The translations under genes were made by a program, and so were the position numbers. A DNA stretch of 64,000 bases from Synechococcus sp. PCC 7336 (GTDB lineage: Bacteria > Cyanobacteriota > Cyanobacteriia > Thermostichales > PCC-7336), in contig NZ_CM001776.1 in assembly GCF_000332275.1 (NCBI RefSeq), positions 1,411,268 through 1,475,267 of the forward strand, read 5' to 3'. Below the pieces are notes generated by a model that was not told the origin of the DNA, did not search any database, and saw only the letters and a program-made list of their open reading frames with translations. This document shows, piece by piece, positions 3,261 to 47,454 of the stretch (the stretch's first letter is position 1; every line of letters begins with the position of its first letter).

Positions 3261-3395
3261 CAGACACTGGCTTCTGTCAGATGTGATGAATAGATTAAAG
3301 CGTTTGCTATAAAAGATTGCAGTTTTTGGCATAAATCGCTGTAGTTTTTTTCTGAAGGCGTTTCGTTTTATCCCATCAAGCTGAGTCAGTGTCTG
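3261..3395. repeat. 12-bp inverted repeat bounding an AT-rich 135-bp segment
   Basis: CAGACACTGGCT (3261-3272) and AGTCAGTGTCTG (3384-3395) are inverted copies with one mismatch. The DNA between them is AT-rich and non-coding, with runs such as AGTTTTTTT. It could be a very small non-autonomous element or just an extended hairpin. No target-site duplication is visible. Confidence 0.35.
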
Positions 3396-3427
3396 GATTT
3401 GGGTAGATTGGCTAATTGTATAGATGC

Positions 3428-4600
3428 CTAAACCAGCGGTTCCATAAATGCGCGCAGGCGGAATAAGCCCTGCTCAATCGTTTCTAAATCCGTAGCGTAA
3501 GACAGGCGAATGTGGTCGTCAGCCCCAAACGCAATACCAGGAACTGCGGCCACCTGCTGTTCCTCTAAGAGGCGATCGCAAAACGCCAACGACTTCAGGC
3601 CCGTTCCGCTAATATTCGGAAACAAGTAAAACGCTCCCTGGGGTTTGACGCAGGTAATGCCGGGAATGGATACGAGACCGTCATGCATGACATGGCGGCG
3701 GCGATCGAAAGTGTCGCGCATTTTAGCCACGGCTGGCTCCGACTCGGGGCTAGTATAGGCCGCCAGTGCGCCATATTGCGCAAAGGAACAGACGTTTGAG
3801 GTGCTGTGGCTTTGAATGGCAGTGGTTGCCCGAATCAGTTCTAGCGGGCCTGCCAGATATCCCAATCGCCAACCGGTCATGGCGTAGGCTTTGGCAAAAC
3901 CGCTACTGAGAATCGTGCGAGCGAAAATCTCGGCCCCGAGACTGCCGATGCTGGTGGCGGTGGCACCGTCGTAAACTAACTTTTCATAGATCTCGTCGGA
4001 GATAACGTACAAATCTCGCTCCACGACGATCTCGGCGATCGCCTCCAGCTCCTCCCGCGCGTACATCGTTCCAGTCGGGTTGGAGGGAGAGGTGAGGATC
4101 AAGAGCTTGCTGCGGGGGGTGATGGCCCCTTTGAGTTGCTCGGGGGTGAGTTTGAACCCATTGGCTTCGCTGGTGGGCACCACGACGGATTCTGCTCCGG
4201 CCAGAGTCGCCATTTCGGGATAGCTGAGCCAGTAAGGTGCGGGCAAAATCACCTCGTCTCCCGGCTCCAACAACGCCATCGCTGCATTAAAGAGCGTTTG
4301 CTTGCCCCCATTCGAGACCATCACTTGCTCGGGGGTATAGGGTAGGCCATTTTCCTCAGCCAGCTTGGAGGCGATCGCCTCTCGCAAGGCGGGCATGCCC
4401 GCTACCGGCCCGTAATGGGTGTGGCCGTCCCGAATGGCCTGAATCGCAGCCTCGCAAATGTGAGGGGGGGTATCGAAATCTGGTTCCCCCGCTCCAAATC
4501 CACAAATATCCACACCTTCGGCCTTGAGGGCTTTCGCTTTCGCGGCGATCGCCAAGGTCATTGATGGGGTCAGATGCGCTACGCGACTTGCCAGCTTCAC
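3428..4600 (-). CDS. aspC: Aspartate aminotransferase (class I, subgroup Ib type)
   Basis: 390 residues from the GTG at 4600, chosen because GGAG lies about 8 bases before it and the family begins at this point (KLASRVAHLTPSMTL). The longer frame to 4720 has no family match. Signature parts are GAGEPDFDTP, HYGPVAGMPALREA, SPSNPTGTMY and the PLP-lysine motif SSGFAKAYAMTGWRLGYLAG. This is the thermophile/cyanobacterial AspAT-Ib type, which transfers the amino group between aspartate and 2-oxoglutarate. Some members also act on prephenate. It is monocistronic, with no neighbouring gene of the same pathway. Confidence 0.9.
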   Translation of the reverse strand: MKLASRVAHLTPSMTLAIAAKAKALKAEGVDICGFGAGEPDFDTPPHICEAAIQAIRDGHTHYGPVAGMPALREAIASKLAEENGLPYTPEQVMVSNGGKQTLFNAAMALLEPGDEVILPAPYWLSYPEMATLAGAESVVVPTSEANGFKLTPEQLKGAITPRSKLLILTSPSNPTGTMYAREELEAIAEIVVERDLYVISDEIYEKLVYDGATATSIGSLGAEIFARTILSSGFAKAYAMTGWRLGYLAGPLELIRATTAIQSHSTSNVCSFAQYGALAAYTSPESEPAVAKMRDTFDRRRHVMHDGLVSIPGITCVKPQGAFYLFPNISGTGLKSLAFCDRLLEEQQVAAVPGIAFGADDHIRLSYATDLETIEQGLFRLRAFMEPLV

Positions 4601-40334: not shown

Positions 40335-40817
40335 ATGGGCAGACCGAGACGCAGTCAAAACAATCGCGAAAAGCTCCTGAACTGTGGCGCCAACGCCTTC
40401 ATCAAACAGGGCTATCACGGCACTGGCATTCAGGAGGTGGTGGAGCGAGTTCGCGTCCCCAAAGGCTCTTTCTATAATTACTTCGAGAGTAAAGAGGGCT
40501 TTGGGGCTGAGGTGATTCGGCAATATACCCAACAGTATGTAACCAACATGGATGCGTTGCTGAGCGAGCCGAACGTTGATGCTCTGTCTGCGCTGAAGTA
40601 TTTTTTCGAGGCTGAGATTCAGCGGCACGAGGCGGGAAGAGAAGGGTGTTTGCTCGGCAACTTGGGGGCAGAGTTGGGAGAGAGTAGCGAGCTTTGCCGT
40701 CAGGCATTGTCTGAGGGCCTGCAAACCATGCAGCAGCGATTCCGCCTTTATTTAGTAATGGACCCGTTTTGGCAATGGGGGCCAGAAAGCTTGCTAGGCG
40801 TGGTTTCTGGCCTTTAG
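40335..40817 (+). pseudogene. TetR-family regulator truncated by transposon insertion
   Basis: The frame gives 160 residues, short for the family (about 190-200). The N-terminal helix-turn-helix is intact (REKLLNCGANAFIKQGYHGTGIQEVVERVRVPKGSFYNYFESKEGF), and the ligand domain begins with REGCLLGNLGAELGESSELCRQAL. The transposon's left inverted repeat starts at 40740, near codon 136. The last 25 codons are transposon DNA, ending in a chance TAG. The missing C-terminal helices form the dimer and ligand pocket, so regulation is probably lost. The true remainder of the gene is not found beyond the element. Confidence 0.82.
40740..40790 (+). repeat. Left terminal inverted repeat of the Tn3-family element
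   Basis: 43 bases (40740-40782, starting TTCCGCCTTTATTTAGTAAT and ending TGGGGGC) are a perfect inverted match to the right end once the intron is removed. Another 8 bases match at 5 positions. The start is the first base of identity, so the true outer end may lie a few bases inside it. Confidence 0.85.
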
Positions 40818-40852
40818 ATTCCTGAAAATCACATCGAATAAACCCATGGCAG

Positions 40853-41440
40853 CTAGTCCTGCCAGAACTGAGCGAAGCAACTAGCCGACAGTTCTGTGTA
40901 GCGAATCGTGTGTTGGATGTTCTTGTGTCCGAGATAGTGTTGGATGGAGCGGGTATCATGACCGTCGTTGACCAACTTGTAGCCACAGGCATGACGCAAC
41001 ATGTGAGGGTGAATGGAGAACGGCAGAGAAGAGAGTTGAGAGATGCGAGTGAGGAGTTTACGAAAGCCCGCTGCAGTCATGGGAGCGCCCCGCTCCGTCA
41101 TAAATAAATAGGGTGAGAGCCGTGATTCACGCTTGAGCCGACGCAACGCCCTCAGTTCTGGCCCTCGAAGGGGATGGACACTAGGAATGCCTCGCTTAAG
41201 GCGATATACCTGCAGAAGCCCCGCATCGAGATCGACTTGCTCCCAGCGCAGTGCGCACAGTTCAGAAACCCTGAGGCCGTGGCGATAAGCTATCAGGATC
41301 ATGGTGGCGTCCCGGTGTCCATGGCGTCCTCGTTGTTTAGCCACAGCCATTAACTCATCCACTTCGCGAGGGGTGAGATATTCACGAGGGCGTTTCTGGT
41401 CGTCAGAGATTGGAACTGTCCCGTTTTCGATAGTTGACAT
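40853..41440 (-). CDS. tnpI: TnpI-like tyrosine recombinase (cointegrate resolvase)
   Basis: 195 residues, the short form that has only the catalytic domain, like FimB/FimE. The catalytic residues are visible: Arg in YRHGLRVSELCALRW, His-x-x-Arg in HPHMLRHACGYKL, the second His in YLGHKN, and the tyrosine in HTIRYTELS. It is divergent from tnpA with a 98-base gap containing the repeat array. In Tn4430-type elements a tyrosine recombinase resolves cointegrates, and that role fits here. Recombinases acting as Tn3 resolvases are more often longer, so this compact form is notable. Confidence 0.8.
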   Translation of the reverse strand: MSTIENGTVPISDDQKRPREYLTPREVDELMAVAKQRGRHGHRDATMILIAYRHGLRVSELCALRWEQVDLDAGLLQVYRLKRGIPSVHPLRGPELRALRRLKRESRLSPYLFMTERGAPMTAAGFRKLLTRISQLSSLPFSIHPHMLRHACGYKLVNDGHDTRSIQHYLGHKNIQHTIRYTELSASCFAQFWQD

Positions 41441-41524
41441 AGCTTGCTTGAGAACTGTCCTACCTAGGTTTGAGGGCCGTTAAAAGCCTAAACTGTCTTA
41501 CTTATGGCCAATAGTCAGACAGTT
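41413..41524. promoter_or_regulatory. IRS-like recombination site between tnpI and tnpA
   Basis: The word AACTGTC recurs: AACTGTCCCGT (41413), AACTGTCCTAC (41453), AACTGTCTTAC (41491-41501), and inverted as GTCAGACAGTT (41514-41524). The last two form an inverted pair with a 12-base spacer, like a tyrosine-recombinase core site. The first two are direct copies 38-40 bases apart, like accessory sites. Tn4430 has the same core-plus-two-direct-repeats layout. Confidence 0.7.
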
Positions 41525-41538
41525 AAGAGAATTCTTGT

Positions 41539-44505
41539 ATGCCGGTTCAGTTTTTATCCGCAACAGAGCGAGATCGCCTCAACAGGTTTCCTGAAGAGAT
41601 CCTCCAAAAGGACCTAAAAGACTTCTTCTGGCTCTCTGACGACGATCGCAGGGAAGCACGTAGCTTGATGGAAGATCACAATTGCCTCGGATTTGCCTTA
41701 CAGCTTTGCTGCTTGCGCTACCTGGGCTTCTTTCCTAGCAACTTTCTAGAGCTACCTCAAGAAATTGTTCAGTTTGTCGCCGATCGCCTGCAGGTCAACG
41801 CTGCATGTTTTTCTACGTATGGGAAAAGCCCAAGGACTCAGCGGTATCACCAGAACCAGCTCCAGACTTTGCTCGGCTATCGCCGCGCAACAACTGCTGA
41901 TATTGCCAGTTTAGAGCAATGGCTGCTAGAGCGCGCTCTAGAGCATGACAAACCCATGCTGTTGCTCGAACTGGCCTGTGGGTATCTCAAACGGAACAAA
42001 ATCGTCCGACTCAAGATCGTGCGTTTGGCGCGAATGGTATCGACAGCGCGCAACCAAGCTCAACAGGTGACTTACCAGATTCTACAACCACTGCTGAGCT
42101 CGGAGTGCCAAACTTTCCTCGATGGTTTGCTGGAGGTTGAGACTGGCTTGGGCAAGACCCGTCTGGCTTGGCTGCAGCGAACGCCTACCGGTCATAATCT
42201 CAAGCAACTGCTCGAAACCCTCTCCAAGATTGCCTTTCTACACAAGCATGGCATTGCCCAGTGGGACTTTGGAAAGCTGACCGCCAATCGCATCAACCAC
42301 CTAGCCAAAGCCGGGGCGAGATCCACCAACCAATACTTGCAACGTGCCCCAAAGATGCGGCGTTATCCCATTCTGATGGCCTTCTTGAAGCAGTCTCTCT
42401 ACAACTTGACTGATGACTTCATCGAGATGTTCGATCAGCGCTTGTGGGAGCTCTACAGAGCGGCCAAACGGGAGTTCGAACAGGCTCGCCTGCAGGCCAC
42501 TCAATCGATCAATGAGAAACTGACCACCCTGAACACAATTGGGCAAATCCTACTCGATCCAGAGGTGGAAGACGCTACCGTGCGCAAAACGACTTTTGCC
42601 TGTATTGACCCCGAGCAACTGCAGATTGCCATGGGGGAAGCCGAGCAGTTGATCCGTCCGGAAAATGATGCTTACATCGATTACTTCCGCCAGTCCTACG
42701 GCCGCATCCGCCGCTTCTCGGGCAAGTTTCTGGAGACCCTCCAGTTTGAAGCCAGTGAACCAGAGCAAGGTCTGCTCAAGGCGCTGGCTTTGGTTCACCA
42801 GATTCATCTCGGCAAGCGGCGCAAACTGCCATCAGATGCCCCCACTGACTTTATCCCTGACACCTGGCGCTCGTATGTCTTGGATGGAGAAGCGATCGCC
42901 GATTGGCGCTACTACGAATTGGCTGCTCTGTGGGTTCTGCGCCAGCGGTTGCGCTCGGGGGATGTCTACCTCCTTCATAGTCGCCGCTTCAAGGAGTTGG
43001 AGCAGTATTTCATTCCCAAAGATGAGTGGCCCTCGCACCGCGATGATGTGCTGGACATGACTGGGACGCCTCTCGATGCACGAGTGCGCCTACAGCAGAG
43101 AGAAGCAGACCTAGTCGGGCTCATAGAGCAAGTCGAAGCTCTCTTGAATAACCCTGACGGCGATTTGCGCGAGGAAAAGGAAACGCTGACCTTGACGCCT
43201 TTTGAGGCTCAAGAGCGGTCTGCCAAGCTAGATCGCTTGAGTGCCCTCATTGGTGCTCGCCTACCTAGAATTGATATTACAGAACTGCTGATTGAGGTGG
43301 ATAGCTGGACGGGATTTTCAGAGGCATTCGAACATCTGCATTCCCCTCACAGCCGCGACCGGAAGCTGCTACTCCATCTTTATGCCTGCTTGTTGGCCCA
43401 GGCTTGCAACCTCGAACTGCCTCAAATGGCGGCTTCTGCCAAACTGTCCTACAACAGTTTGAGCTGGTGCAACACCTGGTACATCCGCGATGACACTCTG
43501 CGGGCGGCGACCACCAAGCTGATCGATTATCACTACCACCTGCCTCTAAGCCGTTTGTGGGGTGGGGGAATGCTTTCTTCCTCAGATGGGCAACGGTTTC
43601 CAGTCAAAGGCAACCTGCGTCAGGCGCGATCGCTCCCCCGTTACTTTGGCTATGGCAAGGGCATTACGTTTTATAGCTGGACTAGCGATCAGCTCTCTCA
43701 GTACGGCTCTAAACCCGTTCCGACTACCAATCGGGATTCTACCTATCTGCTCGATGAGATTGAAAACAACGAAACGGAATTGCCGATTCTCGAGCTCACG
43801 ACCGATACCGCCGGATACACCGACCTGATGTTTGCTCTGTTTGATGTGCTGGGTCTCACCTTTTCCCCCCGCATCCGCGACCTGGGCGCTCAGAAGCTTT
43901 ACCGCACCAGTCGGATTGATATGACTGATTCCCCCCGTCTCAAGGAACACCTGAAGGGAACGCTCAATCTGTCCCTCATTTTGGCCCACTGGGATGAAAT
44001 CTTGCGCTTGGTGGGGTCCATCAAAAAGGGGTGGGTGAGTGCTTCACTGATTGTCCAGAAGCTGCAGGCATACCCCCGCCAACACCCTCTGATGCGGGCT
44101 CTGCAAGAGTACGGTCGCTTGCTCAAAACCATTCATATTCTGCGTTGGTATGCCGATGAGGGGAACCGACGACGACTCAACCGGCAGCTCAACAAAGGCG
44201 AAGCCTTACATAGTCTGCGTTCCGAGCTCTTCTTTGCCAACCAGGGCAAGGTTAAGGGTCAGCGGGACGAACAACTGCGCAATCAGGTCGGCTGTCTCAA
44301 TCTCGTGACCAATGCTGTCATTGTCTGGAACACGGTCTATATCCAGAAAGTCGTGGAGCAACTGCGGCAGGAAGGGGTTGAGGTCAATGAGTCAGACCTC
44401 AAGCGGGTCTGGCCAACCCGCCATGCTCATATCAACATTTACGGGACCTATCACTTCAATCCCGAAGAGATCGGCAGACAGCAGCTCAGAAGCCTTAACC
44501 AGTAG
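41539..44505 (+). CDS. tnpA: Tn3-family transposase TnpA
   Basis: 988 residues, the normal length of the family. The RNase H-like catalytic set is readable at Asp683 (SSSDGQRF), Asp756 (TTDTAGYTDL) and Glu888 (NKGEALHSLR). Spacings are 73 and 132, close to those of Tn4430 TnpA. The N-terminal part (FLSATERDRLNRFPEEI) is the DUF4158-type DNA-binding domain that recognises terminal repeats. Only ATG at 41539 gives the full N-terminus. It is open throughout, so it may be active. The right inverted repeat begins 8 bases after its stop. Confidence 0.95.
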   Translation: MPVQFLSATERDRLNRFPEEILQKDLKDFFWLSDDDRREARSLMEDHNCLGFALQLCCLRYLGFFPSNFLELPQEIVQFVADRLQVNAACFSTYGKSPRTQRYHQNQLQTLLGYRRATTADIASLEQWLLERALEHDKPMLLLELACGYLKRNKIVRLKIVRLARMVSTARNQAQQVTYQILQPLLSSECQTFLDGLLEVETGLGKTRLAWLQRTPTGHNLKQLLETLSKIAFLHKHGIAQWDFGKLTANRINHLAKAGARSTNQYLQRAPKMRRYPILMAFLKQSLYNLTDDFIEMFDQRLWELYRAAKREFEQARLQATQSINEKLTTLNTIGQILLDPEVEDATVRKTTFACIDPEQLQIAMGEAEQLIRPENDAYIDYFRQSYGRIRRFSGKFLETLQFEASEPEQGLLKALALVHQIHLGKRRKLPSDAPTDFIPDTWRSYVLDGEAIADWRYYELAALWVLRQRLRSGDVYLLHSRRFKELEQYFIPKDEWPSHRDDVLDMTGTPLDARVRLQQREADLVGLIEQVEALLNNPDGDLREEKETLTLTPFEAQERSAKLDRLSALIGARLPRIDITELLIEVDSWTGFSEAFEHLHSPHSRDRKLLLHLYACLLAQACNLELPQMAASAKLSYNSLSWCNTWYIRDDTLRAATTKLIDYHYHLPLSRLWGGGMLSSSDGQRFPVKGNLRQARSLPRYFGYGKGITFYSWTSDQLSQYGSKPVPTTNRDSTYLLDEIENNETELPILELTTDTAGYTDLMFALFDVLGLTFSPRIRDLGAQKLYRTSRIDMTDSPRLKEHLKGTLNLSLILAHWDEILRLVGSIKKGWVSASLIVQKLQAYPRQHPLMRALQEYGRLLKTIHILRWYADEGNRRRLNRQLNKGEALHSLRSELFFANQGKVKGQRDEQLRNQVGCLNLVTNAVIVWNTVYIQKVVEQLRQEGVEVNESDLKRVWPTRHAHINIYGTYHFNPEEIGRQQLRSLNQ

Positions 44506-44513
44506 GCTTTTCA

Positions 44514-44543
44514 GCCCCCATTGCCAAAACGGGTCCATTACTA
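44514..44543 (-). repeat. Right terminal inverted repeat, inner 30 bases
   Basis: These 30 bases are the exact reverse complement of 40753-40782. They stop at CTA, where the group II intron begins with GTGCG. The outer part of the repeat resumes at 46514. Confidence 0.9.
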
Positions 44544-44963
44544 GTGCGCCGAGCGAAGCTCGGCTATGTCAGTCGGGGGCAGGTCCCGACCTCGGAAGTC
44601 CTGGTCAGACACCGAGTACCGAGTGTTGCGTTGGCCATCGGTAACGAGGTCAGCGAAGCGTACACAGGGAGGTGACGGGCCGTAATGCGCGAGCGTGAAG
44701 GGATTGAGCCCCGTTATGACCGAAACGTGGATGCCGACGTGTTTAGTATCACGGAAGGCAATACCGGAGGAGCCAAAGACCAAGGCTCCCGAGGGTCCAC
44801 CGGGGTCTGAGACCACAGCACGTCACCAAGGCAGAGTCGGGAACTCGGGAGATCCCACGAACTCCTCCGACACGGGGGTAGGGTGGCACAACCGGTAAAC
44901 CGGGAGGAAACCCGATGGTTGGTGGGAAGTCGGATGCCCACATAGTAGCGAGGAGATGGGGTA

Positions 44964-46343
44964 ATGCCCATGGAGCGAAGGAGGGCACATACAGTTGCCC
45001 GCTTAATGGAAACGCTGCCCACACGCAGAGGTGGAATCGCGGCGACCACAGCAGTTGAGCGGATATCCAGTCGTGCTTGCAATCACCCAGAGGAGCCGTT
45101 CACGGCTTTGATGCACCACTTCACGGTGGATAACTTGCGAGCTTGCTTCGAGTCGCTGGACGCAAGGAAAGCGACCGGAGTGGATGGAGTCACCAAACAG
45201 ATGTACGAGCAGAACTTGGAGGGCAACCTCCAGCAACTGCATCGGAAACTGTGTCAAATGTCGTATCGGCCTCAATCGGTGCGGCGAGTCGAGATCCCCA
45301 AAGAGGATGGGACGATGCGCCCCCTCGGGATCAGCTGCTTTGAAGACAAAATCGTGCAGGAGATGACACGCGGGATTCTAGAAGGGATCTATGAGCCAAC
45401 GTTTCTGGACACCTCGTATGGGTTCAGGCCGGGGCGGAGTTGCCACGATGCCCTACGCCAGCTCAACCAGGAGTTCATGAGACAGCCAGTGAATTGGATC
45501 GTCGATCTAGACCTGGCCCAGTTTTTCGACACGATGCCGCACCGGGAGATCCTCGCCATCTTGTCAGAGCGCATTCAGGACCGGAGATTTCTCCGCCTAA
45601 TCGCGCGAATGCTCAAGGCTGGCGTGCAGACCCCAGGTGGCGTGGTGTATGACGATCTGGGGAGTCCGCAGGGCTCCATTGTCTCTCCCGTGATCGCCAA
45701 TGTTTTCCTCGACTACGTACTCGATCGGTGGATTGCATCAGTCGTGACTCAACACTGTCGCGGCTACTGTCAGTCGATTAGGTATGCAGACGATGCTGTA
45801 GTGGTGTTTGAACGGGAAGATGACGCTCGCCGCTTTATGCGGGCCTTGCCGAAACGGCTGGGTAAATATGGGCTGCGTCTGAACCAGAAGAAAACCCGAC
45901 TGCTGGCTTTTGGCAAACAAGCCGCTTGGCGAGCCATCAAGGGGGGACCGAAAGTGCCCACCTTTGACTTTCTTGGCTTCACCCACTATTGGGGGCGCAG
46001 CCGGACTGGCAAGGCTAGAGTGAAGCGGAAGACCTCGAAGAAGCGACTGCGTAGAGCCCTGGTGGACCTTAAAATCTGGTTGCGCCAGGAACGCAGCGCC
46101 CGCAAATTACCTCAGCTATGGCAAATCATGGCTAGTAAAATGCGCGGGCACTTCAGCTACTTTGGGGTGAGCGACAATACTATTGCCTTGCGCCGCTTCG
46201 AGTGGCAGGCTCACAGACTGTTGTTCAAGTGGCTCAATCGCCGGAGTCAGCGACGCAGTTTCACGTGGGAGGGATTTCTCCGATATATGGAGCGTTTTCC
46301 TCTTCCGCGCCCAGGTCGATTGGTGTCACTCTATCCCGTCTAG
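44964..46343 (+). CDS. ltrA: Group II intron reverse transcriptase/maturase
   Basis: 459 residues from an ATG with GGAG 8 bases upstream. RT domain: GVDGVTKQMYEQNL, SYGFRPGRSCHDALRQL, the catalytic YADD (Tyr274-Asp277), GSPQGSIVSPVIAN. The domain X/maturase region includes FDFLGFTHYWGRSRTGKARVKRKTSKKRLRRAL. It ends soon after domain X, so the HNH endonuclease domain is absent. Introns lacking it usually depend on replication forks or structured DNA for mobility. The frame is intact, so splicing and retrotransposition remain possible. Confidence 0.93.
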   Translation: MPMERRRAHTVARLMETLPTRRGGIAATTAVERISSRACNHPEEPFTALMHHFTVDNLRACFESLDARKATGVDGVTKQMYEQNLEGNLQQLHRKLCQMSYRPQSVRRVEIPKEDGTMRPLGISCFEDKIVQEMTRGILEGIYEPTFLDTSYGFRPGRSCHDALRQLNQEFMRQPVNWIVDLDLAQFFDTMPHREILAILSERIQDRRFLRLIARMLKAGVQTPGGVVYDDLGSPQGSIVSPVIANVFLDYVLDRWIASVVTQHCRGYCQSIRYADDAVVVFEREDDARRFMRALPKRLGKYGLRLNQKKTRLLAFGKQAAWRAIKGGPKVPTFDFLGFTHYWGRSRTGKARVKRKTSKKRLRRALVDLKIWLRQERSARKLPQLWQIMASKMRGHFSYFGVSDNTIALRRFEWQAHRLLFKWLNRRSQRRSFTWEGFLRYMERFPLPRPGRLVSLYPV

Positions 46344-46359
46344 AGAATGGCGGTATGAA

Positions 46360-46392
46360 GAGGCCTGTGCGGGAAATCCGCAGGCGGGCTTC
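46360..46392 (+). ncRNA. Group II intron domain V
   Basis: The strand pairs as GAGGCCTG/CGGGCTTC and TGCGG/CCGCA with a GG bulge and a GAAAT loop, the standard 33-34 nt domain V shape. The catalytic triad position reads A-G-G (46361-46363) where AGC or CGC is usual. This may lower activity, or pairing may be shifted. Confidence 0.75.
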
Positions 46393-46394
46393 TG

Positions 46395-46513
46395 TGGGGG
46401 GAGAGACTTTCAACAATGCATGGCCGAATATTGTGACACTCTCGAACTGAAAGGCGAGAGCAACAGTGAATACAAAGCAGGTCTAAACATTGGAGGAGTC
46501 TCTTCTACCCGAC
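46395..46513 (+). ncRNA. Extended group II intron domain VI
   Basis: AGAGACT (46402-46408) pairs with AGTCTCT (46497-46503), and the base pairs GGGGG with TACCC. A46507, 7 bases from the 3' end, is in the bulged branch-point position. Between the two strands lie 88 extra bases with their own hairpin (CTCTCG/CGAGAG), so domain VI is about 119 nt instead of the usual 35-45. Confidence 0.65.
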
Positions 46514-46530
46514 AATAAAGGCGGAAGCGG

Positions 46531-47454
46531 GTGGAAGAATTCTTTGCCAGTCGGGAGTTGTCTGCCAACACCCAGCGTAATTACCGACGCGAATTGAGGC
46601 GGTTTTTGGATTGGACGCCGCTGACTTGGCAGGGGGTGAGTTTTCGGGAGATCGATCGCTATCGCGACTTTCTCAAGGATTTACCGGTAGGGGAGAGGGG
46701 GCGATCGGCGGCGTCGCTGAATCTGGCGCGGGCGGCTCTGAGGAGTTTTTTCGCTTGGATGGTGGCGCGGGATTACTGCGTCAAAGATCCGACTGCTCAG
46801 TGGGAGAAGGTCAAAGATAAGCCTTGGGTGGCGAAGGATTTGCCGAGCGAGCAGGTGCAGGCGCTGTTCGAGGCGCTGGCGAATCGGGGGGAGAATCGGG
46901 TGCGAGATACGGCATTGCTGCACGTTCTCTCTCACGGGCTGCGGGCTTCGGAAATTGTCGGACTGAATGTTGAGGACTTCGACGGGACGCGGTTGCGGGT
47001 GTTTCAGTCAAAGACTCAGCGTTGGAAGTCGGTGCCGCTGGGGAGTGCGGGGCGAGAGGCGATCGCCAGCTATCTGGACTGGAGAGAGGGGGTTGGGTTT
47101 GTGGGGAGTGGAGGCGATCCCCTGTTTGTGTCTCACAGCCCCGATCCTGTTTATCGGGGGAAGCGGCTGTCTTACAACGGTCTGTACTCGATCTTTAAGG
47201 GGCTGGCAGCTGCAGCGGGGATAGACAGCAGCCATCCCCACCAGATGCGGCATACGTTTGCGACGCTTCTTGCTGTGATGGGGATGGAGGGGCAGTTGGC
47301 TCGACTGCTAACGGGGCATCGTTCAGAGGCAAGTTACGAGCGCTACAATCTGCGGGCGTTGGAGTTGAGGGCGGAGGAGGAGTTTTATCGGTTGGTGGAG
47401 GGGCAGTTGCCCGGGCAGGATTTGTCGTGCGATGCCGTTCGGTCAATGGGATAG
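46531..47454 (+). CDS. XerC/XerD-like tyrosine recombinase
   Basis: 307 residues from a GTG at 46531, only 5 bases beyond the transposon's repeat. The SAM-like N-terminal core-binding domain (SANTQRNYRRELRRFLDW) and the catalytic domain are present. The set is Arg in LSHGLRASEIVGL, Lys in SKTQRWKSVPL, HxxR in HPHQMRHTFATLL, His in LLTGHRSEASYERYNL and the tyrosine in YERYNL. The N-terminus begins a little late compared with Xer proteins, so the insertion may have removed the first codons. An in-frame stop occurs upstream in the repeat. GC content and HIP1 use fit the host chromosome. Confidence 0.82.
   Translation: MEEFFASRELSANTQRNYRRELRRFLDWTPLTWQGVSFREIDRYRDFLKDLPVGERGRSAASLNLARAALRSFFAWMVARDYCVKDPTAQWEKVKDKPWVAKDLPSEQVQALFEALANRGENRVRDTALLHVLSHGLRASEIVGLNVEDFDGTRLRVFQSKTQRWKSVPLGSAGREAIASYLDWREGVGFVGSGGDPLFVSHSPDPVYRGKRLSYNGLYSIFKGLAAAAGIDSSHPHQMRHTFATLLAVMGMEGQLARLLTGHRSEASYERYNLRALELRAEEEFYRLVEGQLPGQDLSCDAVRSMG

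Follow-up and report, generated by a model that had tools for sequence, protein, structure and literature searches.

The analysed window is a stretch of 64,000 nt from Synechococcus sp. PCC 7336 (GCF_000332275.1, NZ_CM001776.1, positions 1,411,268-1,475,267 of the forward strand). In its second half lies a Tn3-family transposon with a group II intron inserted into the right terminal inverted repeat (IR). The features of the locus, in window coordinates, are the following.

40335..40742, + strand: truncated TetR-family regulator gene of the left flank, ended by the left end of the transposon
40743..40782, + strand: left terminal IR, most likely 40 bp with the tip CGCC, exact reverse complement of the rejoined right IR
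40853..41440, - strand: tyrosine recombinase gene in the position of the tnpI resolvase (Phage_integrase PF00589, E 5.6e-40)
41539..44505, + strand: tnpA, Tn3-family transposase of 988 aa, uninterrupted (DDE_Tnp_Tn3, E 1.2e-133; NF033527, 921.8 bits)
44514..44543, + strand: inner 30 bp of the right IR, 5' exon side, with IBS2 (44531-44535) and IBS1 (44538-44543)
44544..46513, + strand: group II intron, 1970 nt, GTGCG...CGAC (exact IR junction, alignment of 8 homologues, RF02005, RF00029)
44718..44722, + strand: EBS2 (covarying pairing with IBS2)
44744..44749, + strand: EBS1, UAGUAU (pairing with IBS1)
44964..46343, + strand: intron-encoded reverse transcriptase/maturase of 459 aa (TIGR04416, 340.3 bits at residues 56-427, cut-off 300)
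46360..46392, + strand: domain V, triad AGG, bulge AG (RF00029, 34.7 bits, E 1.4e-5, below the gathering score of 40)
46395..46513, + strand: domain VI with a bulged branch-point A at 46507, position -7 (consensus fold of 11 sequences)
46514..46523, + strand: outer 10 bp of the right IR, 3' exon side
46531..47454, + strand: tyrosine recombinase gene of the right flank, outside the transposon, with a 93% identical (protein) paralogue elsewhere in the genome

The terminal IRs of Tn3-family elements are about 38 bp long. The window element is assigned to this family by the Tn3 DDE domain of TnpA, by perfect 40-bp IRs when the intron is set aside and by a recombinase gene in the TnpI position. The latter gene is placed between the left IR and tnpA, is oriented divergently to tnpA and has a putative resolvase role. 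Repeated ACTGTCYTAC motifs are found between the two genes, at 41453-41530, and resemble a recombination site for a TnpI-like protein. On the left flank, the TetR_N and AcuR-like Pfam models cover only the first ~140 residues of the regulator frame, which then enters the IR. On the right flank, the tyrosine recombinase gene directly abuts the transposon tip, and its paralogue (L056, 3377-4276) is located in a distant part of the genome. No 5-bp target duplication surrounds the element, GATTC and GAAGC being found at its two sides. Tn3 elements are able to produce adjacent deletions by intramolecular transposition; an earlier event of this kind beside the window element would explain both the absent duplication and the cut TetR-family gene. 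The genome contains a single copy of the IR pair and a single full intron. Fragments of related introns are also present on the minus strand at L060 (about 3403-3548) and L061 (about 3318-3413), where the exact 3' end is kept and nearly all of the 5' part is gone, as incomplete reverse transcription would leave.

When 44514-44543 is joined to 46514-46526, the product is the reverse complement of 40740-40782 at 43/43 positions. The rejoined site obtains an IR partner score of 42, compared to a maximum of 27 among 1,444 control positions, and a chance match of the split repeat is excluded. The first-pass annotation of the locus, namely a group II intron nested in a split Tn3-family terminal repeat, is correct. 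The match of 43 bases given in that annotation also stands, but not the IR length derived from it. A homologous Tn3 element (L107) possesses two identical IRs of 40 bp that start with CGCC and are bordered on either side by the target duplication GACAG. As the tip of the IR is fixed there by the duplication, the window IR most likely ends at CGCC as well and is composed of 40743-40782 on the left and of 44514-44543 plus 46514-46523 on the right. Its right end thus has 10 outer bases instead of the 13 proposed, 7 of the 10 being the same in L107, and the three additional matching bases (40740-40742) belong to the flank and match by chance. Comparison with the paralogue of the neighbouring integrase gene, in which homology is found only from 46523/46524 outward, agrees with a tip at CGCC. 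It could still be argued, in view of these 3 chance matches among the 13 outer bases, that the whole outer match is coincidental and that the transposon ends at 44543. The probability of this is negligible: the L107 element keeps the same 10 outer positions at both of its ends, followed by the 5-bp duplication, and an end at 44543 is thereby ruled out.

The intron is inserted in the sense orientation downstream of tnpA, 10 nt from the transposon tip. Its annotated size of 1970 bases and the exactness of both ends were upheld by eight full-length homologous introns (71-76% nucleotide identity) which align end to end with bases 1-1970; the nine introns, window included, have identical boundaries. 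The Rfam model group-II-D1D4-6 (RF02005) matches 44580-44815 with 145.5 bits (E 1.8e-42, gathering score 49). The nearest solved structure to the encoded reverse transcriptase is the GsI-IIC RT (1.1e-41). Pfam reports RVT_1 only in this protein, and an endonuclease domain was not found in it. In domain VI, the bulged A at -7 is conserved in 11 sequences and is flanked on both sides by covarying pairs. This domain also displays a long conserved distal extension past the branch-point stem, with covarying pairs of its own. A GUGYG start, an AY end, EBS/IBS pairing, the domain I-IV signature, domains V and VI and a reverse transcriptase/maturase are thus all found, and on these sequence features the element is classed among the group II introns, its domain V being a variant one. 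The predicted ligated-exon junction reads ...CATTACTA / AATAAAGG...

The variant concerns two elements of domain V. In the intron family, 12/12 complete domain V copies (window, L078, L079, L081-L087, L090 and L095) combine an AGG triad, the partner of which has become C, with an AG bulge. A review gives an AGC or CGC triad and an AY bulge for domain V (PMC4424553). These letters are near-universal in group II introns but do not strictly define them. The D1D4-6 relatives L069, L070 and L073 have the triad AGC, and the bulges of the outgroup are mostly AY. Triad and bulge belong to one catalytic triplex according to a structure paper (PMC6224600). These sequences may accordingly be those of a naturally re-wired active site, in which the third pair of the triad changed from C-G to G-C and the bulge from AY to AG in a family still mobile by homing into transposon terminal repeats, a proposal to which about even odds are given. 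If it is true, AGG and AG would represent a coupled change in the catalytic triplex.

When the reverse transcriptase was used as the query against 84,980 species genomes, eleven close relatives were recovered, with protein identities of 68-77%. Their hosts are Leptolyngbya-like cyanobacteria in nearly every case; one contig carries the label of an Acidobacteriota bin. Little was gained by searching plasmids, viruses and genomes of the same order for more closely related transposons or introns. A single contig of Phormidesmis priestleyi Ana (L083/L107) carries a complete related Tn3 element, whose TnpA is identical to that of the window at 594/998 aligned positions (about 60%). Its IRs are perfect, and an intron splits the right one at the position observed in the window, again 10 nt from the tip. 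At L078, the intron occupies the same position of an IR that is 35/40 identical to that of L107 (16/17 outside the pairing region); a diverged partner repeat is located upstream, on the far side of a transposase gene of IS1182 type. Another genome contains the Tn3-type repeat without an intron, in copies that make up a 198-bp miniature element. At L086, the intron interrupts an IS1-family element 2 bp inward from its right end; the left IR of this element matches at 18/22 positions. This partner is weak when taken alone, 3.9% of controls being equally good; an intron-free homologue of the same IS1-family end is carried by a Leptolyngbya plasmid. The targets at L079 and L090 resemble the Tn3-type repeat, and a convincing partner IR was sought for both and not found. 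No IR could be demonstrated at the insertion sites of L082, L084 and L088. The L081 intron lies inside an ISAzo13-type transposase gene and that of L085 in a short tandem repeat. An IS6-like reading of the GGTTGTGTTGCAA target group was considered and rejected, as L081 lies in an ISAzo13 transposase gene and L084 in a short frame of IS256-like appearance that matches no Pfam family. In Phormidesmis priestleyi BC1401 (L080, 3899-3964), the last 65 nt of the intron are inverted upstream of its reverse transcriptase gene, which indicates a rearranged copy. The comparison of flanks between intron copies, as advised in the first-pass annotation, reveals the IR sequence as a recurrent target (L083/L107, L078), in addition to the IS1-family end of L086.

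The basis of target choice was examined by scanning the 5' parts of the nine introns for a hexamer complementary to the six bases that precede each intron. A single clear maximum was obtained at intron position 201, where 52/54 positions pair with IBS1, the window intron having one mismatch. When exons were shuffled among the introns, this score was reached in 0/20,000 trials. An alternative EBS1 at 44943 (UAGUAG) fits the window alone and was rejected, with a family-wide score of 41/54 versus 52/54 for 44744. EBS2, at intron position 175, pairs with IBS2 at 41/45 positions in the nine introns. Both EBS elements covary with their IBS partners, so the sites are chosen by intron-exon base pairing. 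EBS1 and the IR were found to change in step, UAGUAU accompanying TTACTA in the window and UAGAAC accompanying GATTCTA in L083. A tree of the introns places that of the window beside L079, and L083 together with L082, L085 and L087; the introns inserted in IRs are spread over several separate branches. The label 'inserted in an IR' is neither significantly clustered nor significantly excluded on this tree. As the IR-inserted introns do not form one group, and as no sister relationship links the window intron to that of L083, the simplest reading is that the introns arrived separately, with EBS changes to match.

The interpretation favored here, with a probability of about 0.83, is that an endonuclease-free mobile group II intron retrohomed into the Tn3-family IR and that its lineage repeatedly homes to transposon ends. 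The intron, which appears intact, would retrohome through EBS1 and EBS2 pairing into the conserved terminal IR of a transposon carrying tnpI and tnpA. Its lineage in Leptolyngbya-like cyanobacteria would reuse the ends of DNA transposons, inserting at one shared nucleotide of Tn3-type repeats and in an IS1-family end, and the EBS sequences would be adjusted to each target end. The anatomy, the exact ends, the recurrence at one position and the EBS/IBS covariation are observed; retrohoming is the presumed route, and the intron is presumably competent for splicing. The idea of a preferred landing site, initially offered as a guess, gains support from the insertion at the same nucleotide in L107, from the further IR insertions and from the EBS/IBS covariation. 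The favored interpretation is weakened by the relatives whose sites lie outside IRs or lack a demonstrated one, by the missing partners at L079 and L090, by the weakness of the L086 partner alone, by the lack of significant clustering or exclusion of IR insertion on the tree and by the EBS1/IBS1 mismatch of the window intron.

Three other explanations were weighed. Group IIC introns recognise an upstream hairpin or terminator, and a short inverted repeat (AAGCCT...AGGCTT) is indeed found where tnpA ends, some 30-55 nt upstream of the intron. Recognition of this kind is nevertheless very improbable here: the ribozyme matches D1D4-6, and a 6-bp EBS1 is present along with a covarying EBS2, whereas group IIC introns have an EBS1 of 3-4 bp and no EBS2 (PMC7923331). 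Transposon DNA could also be simply a safe place, with the ends hit by chance and the copies located elsewhere purged by selection. Introns of bacteria generally have other mobile DNA around them (PMC4424553), and several of the present relatives are found in or near transposase genes rather than in IRs. This explanation is unlikely given that the insertion site is identical to the nucleotide in three related IRs and is 2 bp away from an IS1 end in a fourth case, and that the IR bases concerned are exactly those paired with the EBS.

The shared position could finally reflect descent, the intron having entered the Tn3 transposon family once and been inherited with it. The elements of the window and L083 are in fact alike in architecture, with TnpA proteins about 60% identical and the intron at the same place. 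Descent is nonetheless judged quite unlikely. The two introns are not sisters, and EBS1 and the IR differ in step between them. Furthermore, as transposition requires two intact ends and the target duplication of the L083 element is perfect, its intron most likely arrived after the transposon had inserted.

The consequences for the transposon can be considered in the light of the transposition mechanism. Tn3 transposases bind the IR and cut at its tip, and RNA splicing cannot repair a DNA end. As 1970 bp separate the inner 30 bp of the right IR from the tip, this end should not work. The window transposon is probably immobile unless one-ended transposition or intron loss takes place.

Homing of a group II intron to the inverted repeats of an insertion sequence has been reported before. 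A close parallel is RmInt2, which homes to the terminal inverted repeats of ISRm17; one of the two ends is always on the lagging-strand template, which was proposed as a benefit (PMC5894124). This argument could apply by analogy to the window intron, whose reverse transcriptase has no recognisable endonuclease domain. The present case differs by its host phylum, the cyanobacteria, by the family of its targets (the 40-bp repeat of a Tn3-family element and the end of an IS1-family one) and by an EBS shifted between repeat variants, the two systems being set apart by their descriptions and not by intron sequences. RmInt1, also without an endonuclease domain, homes to the abundant ISRm2011-2 and is said to block its spread (PMC8914252, PMC5894124), but its target is within an IS630-family element and is not reported there as a terminal repeat. 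The homing sites of E.c.I4 are likewise provided by insertion sequences and can become saturated (PMC3522654); they differ in being located in the coding sequence of IS3-like transposase genes instead of a terminal repeat. The TnMERI1 intron is also nested in a class II (Tn3-type) transposon, but its site, between tnpR and merB3, is remote from either end (PMC6920998). Group IIC introns at attC sites or terminators similarly enter a repeated recombination site of another mobile system (PMC4424553, PMC7923331), using hairpin recognition where the window intron shows EBS2/IBS2 pairing; the group IIC features, absence of EBS2 and a hairpin-dependent target, are not found in the window intron, in which EBS2 covaries with IBS2. 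The cyanobacterial introns F1-F6 of Thermosynechococcus elongatus spread in waves of retrohoming once their EBS had diverged (PMC2882425), a pattern resembling the one that we infer for the window family. They belong to subclass IIB1 (CL), whereas the window intron matches D1D4-6, and their sites are not described as transposon ends in the part of that report used here. Within the open-access literature searched, and as far as could be shown, the novelty thus resides in the lineage, in the Tn3 and IS1 targets and in the shared nucleotide position, although earlier reports may exist.

The biological picture would be that of a single retroelement lineage which repeatedly picks the functional ends of DNA transposons and re-tunes its guide sequences to them. 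Transposon ends are conserved, repeated, non-coding and available in both orientations, and would suit an endonuclease-free intron possibly dependent on replication forks. The host, for its part, may gain a brake on transposition.
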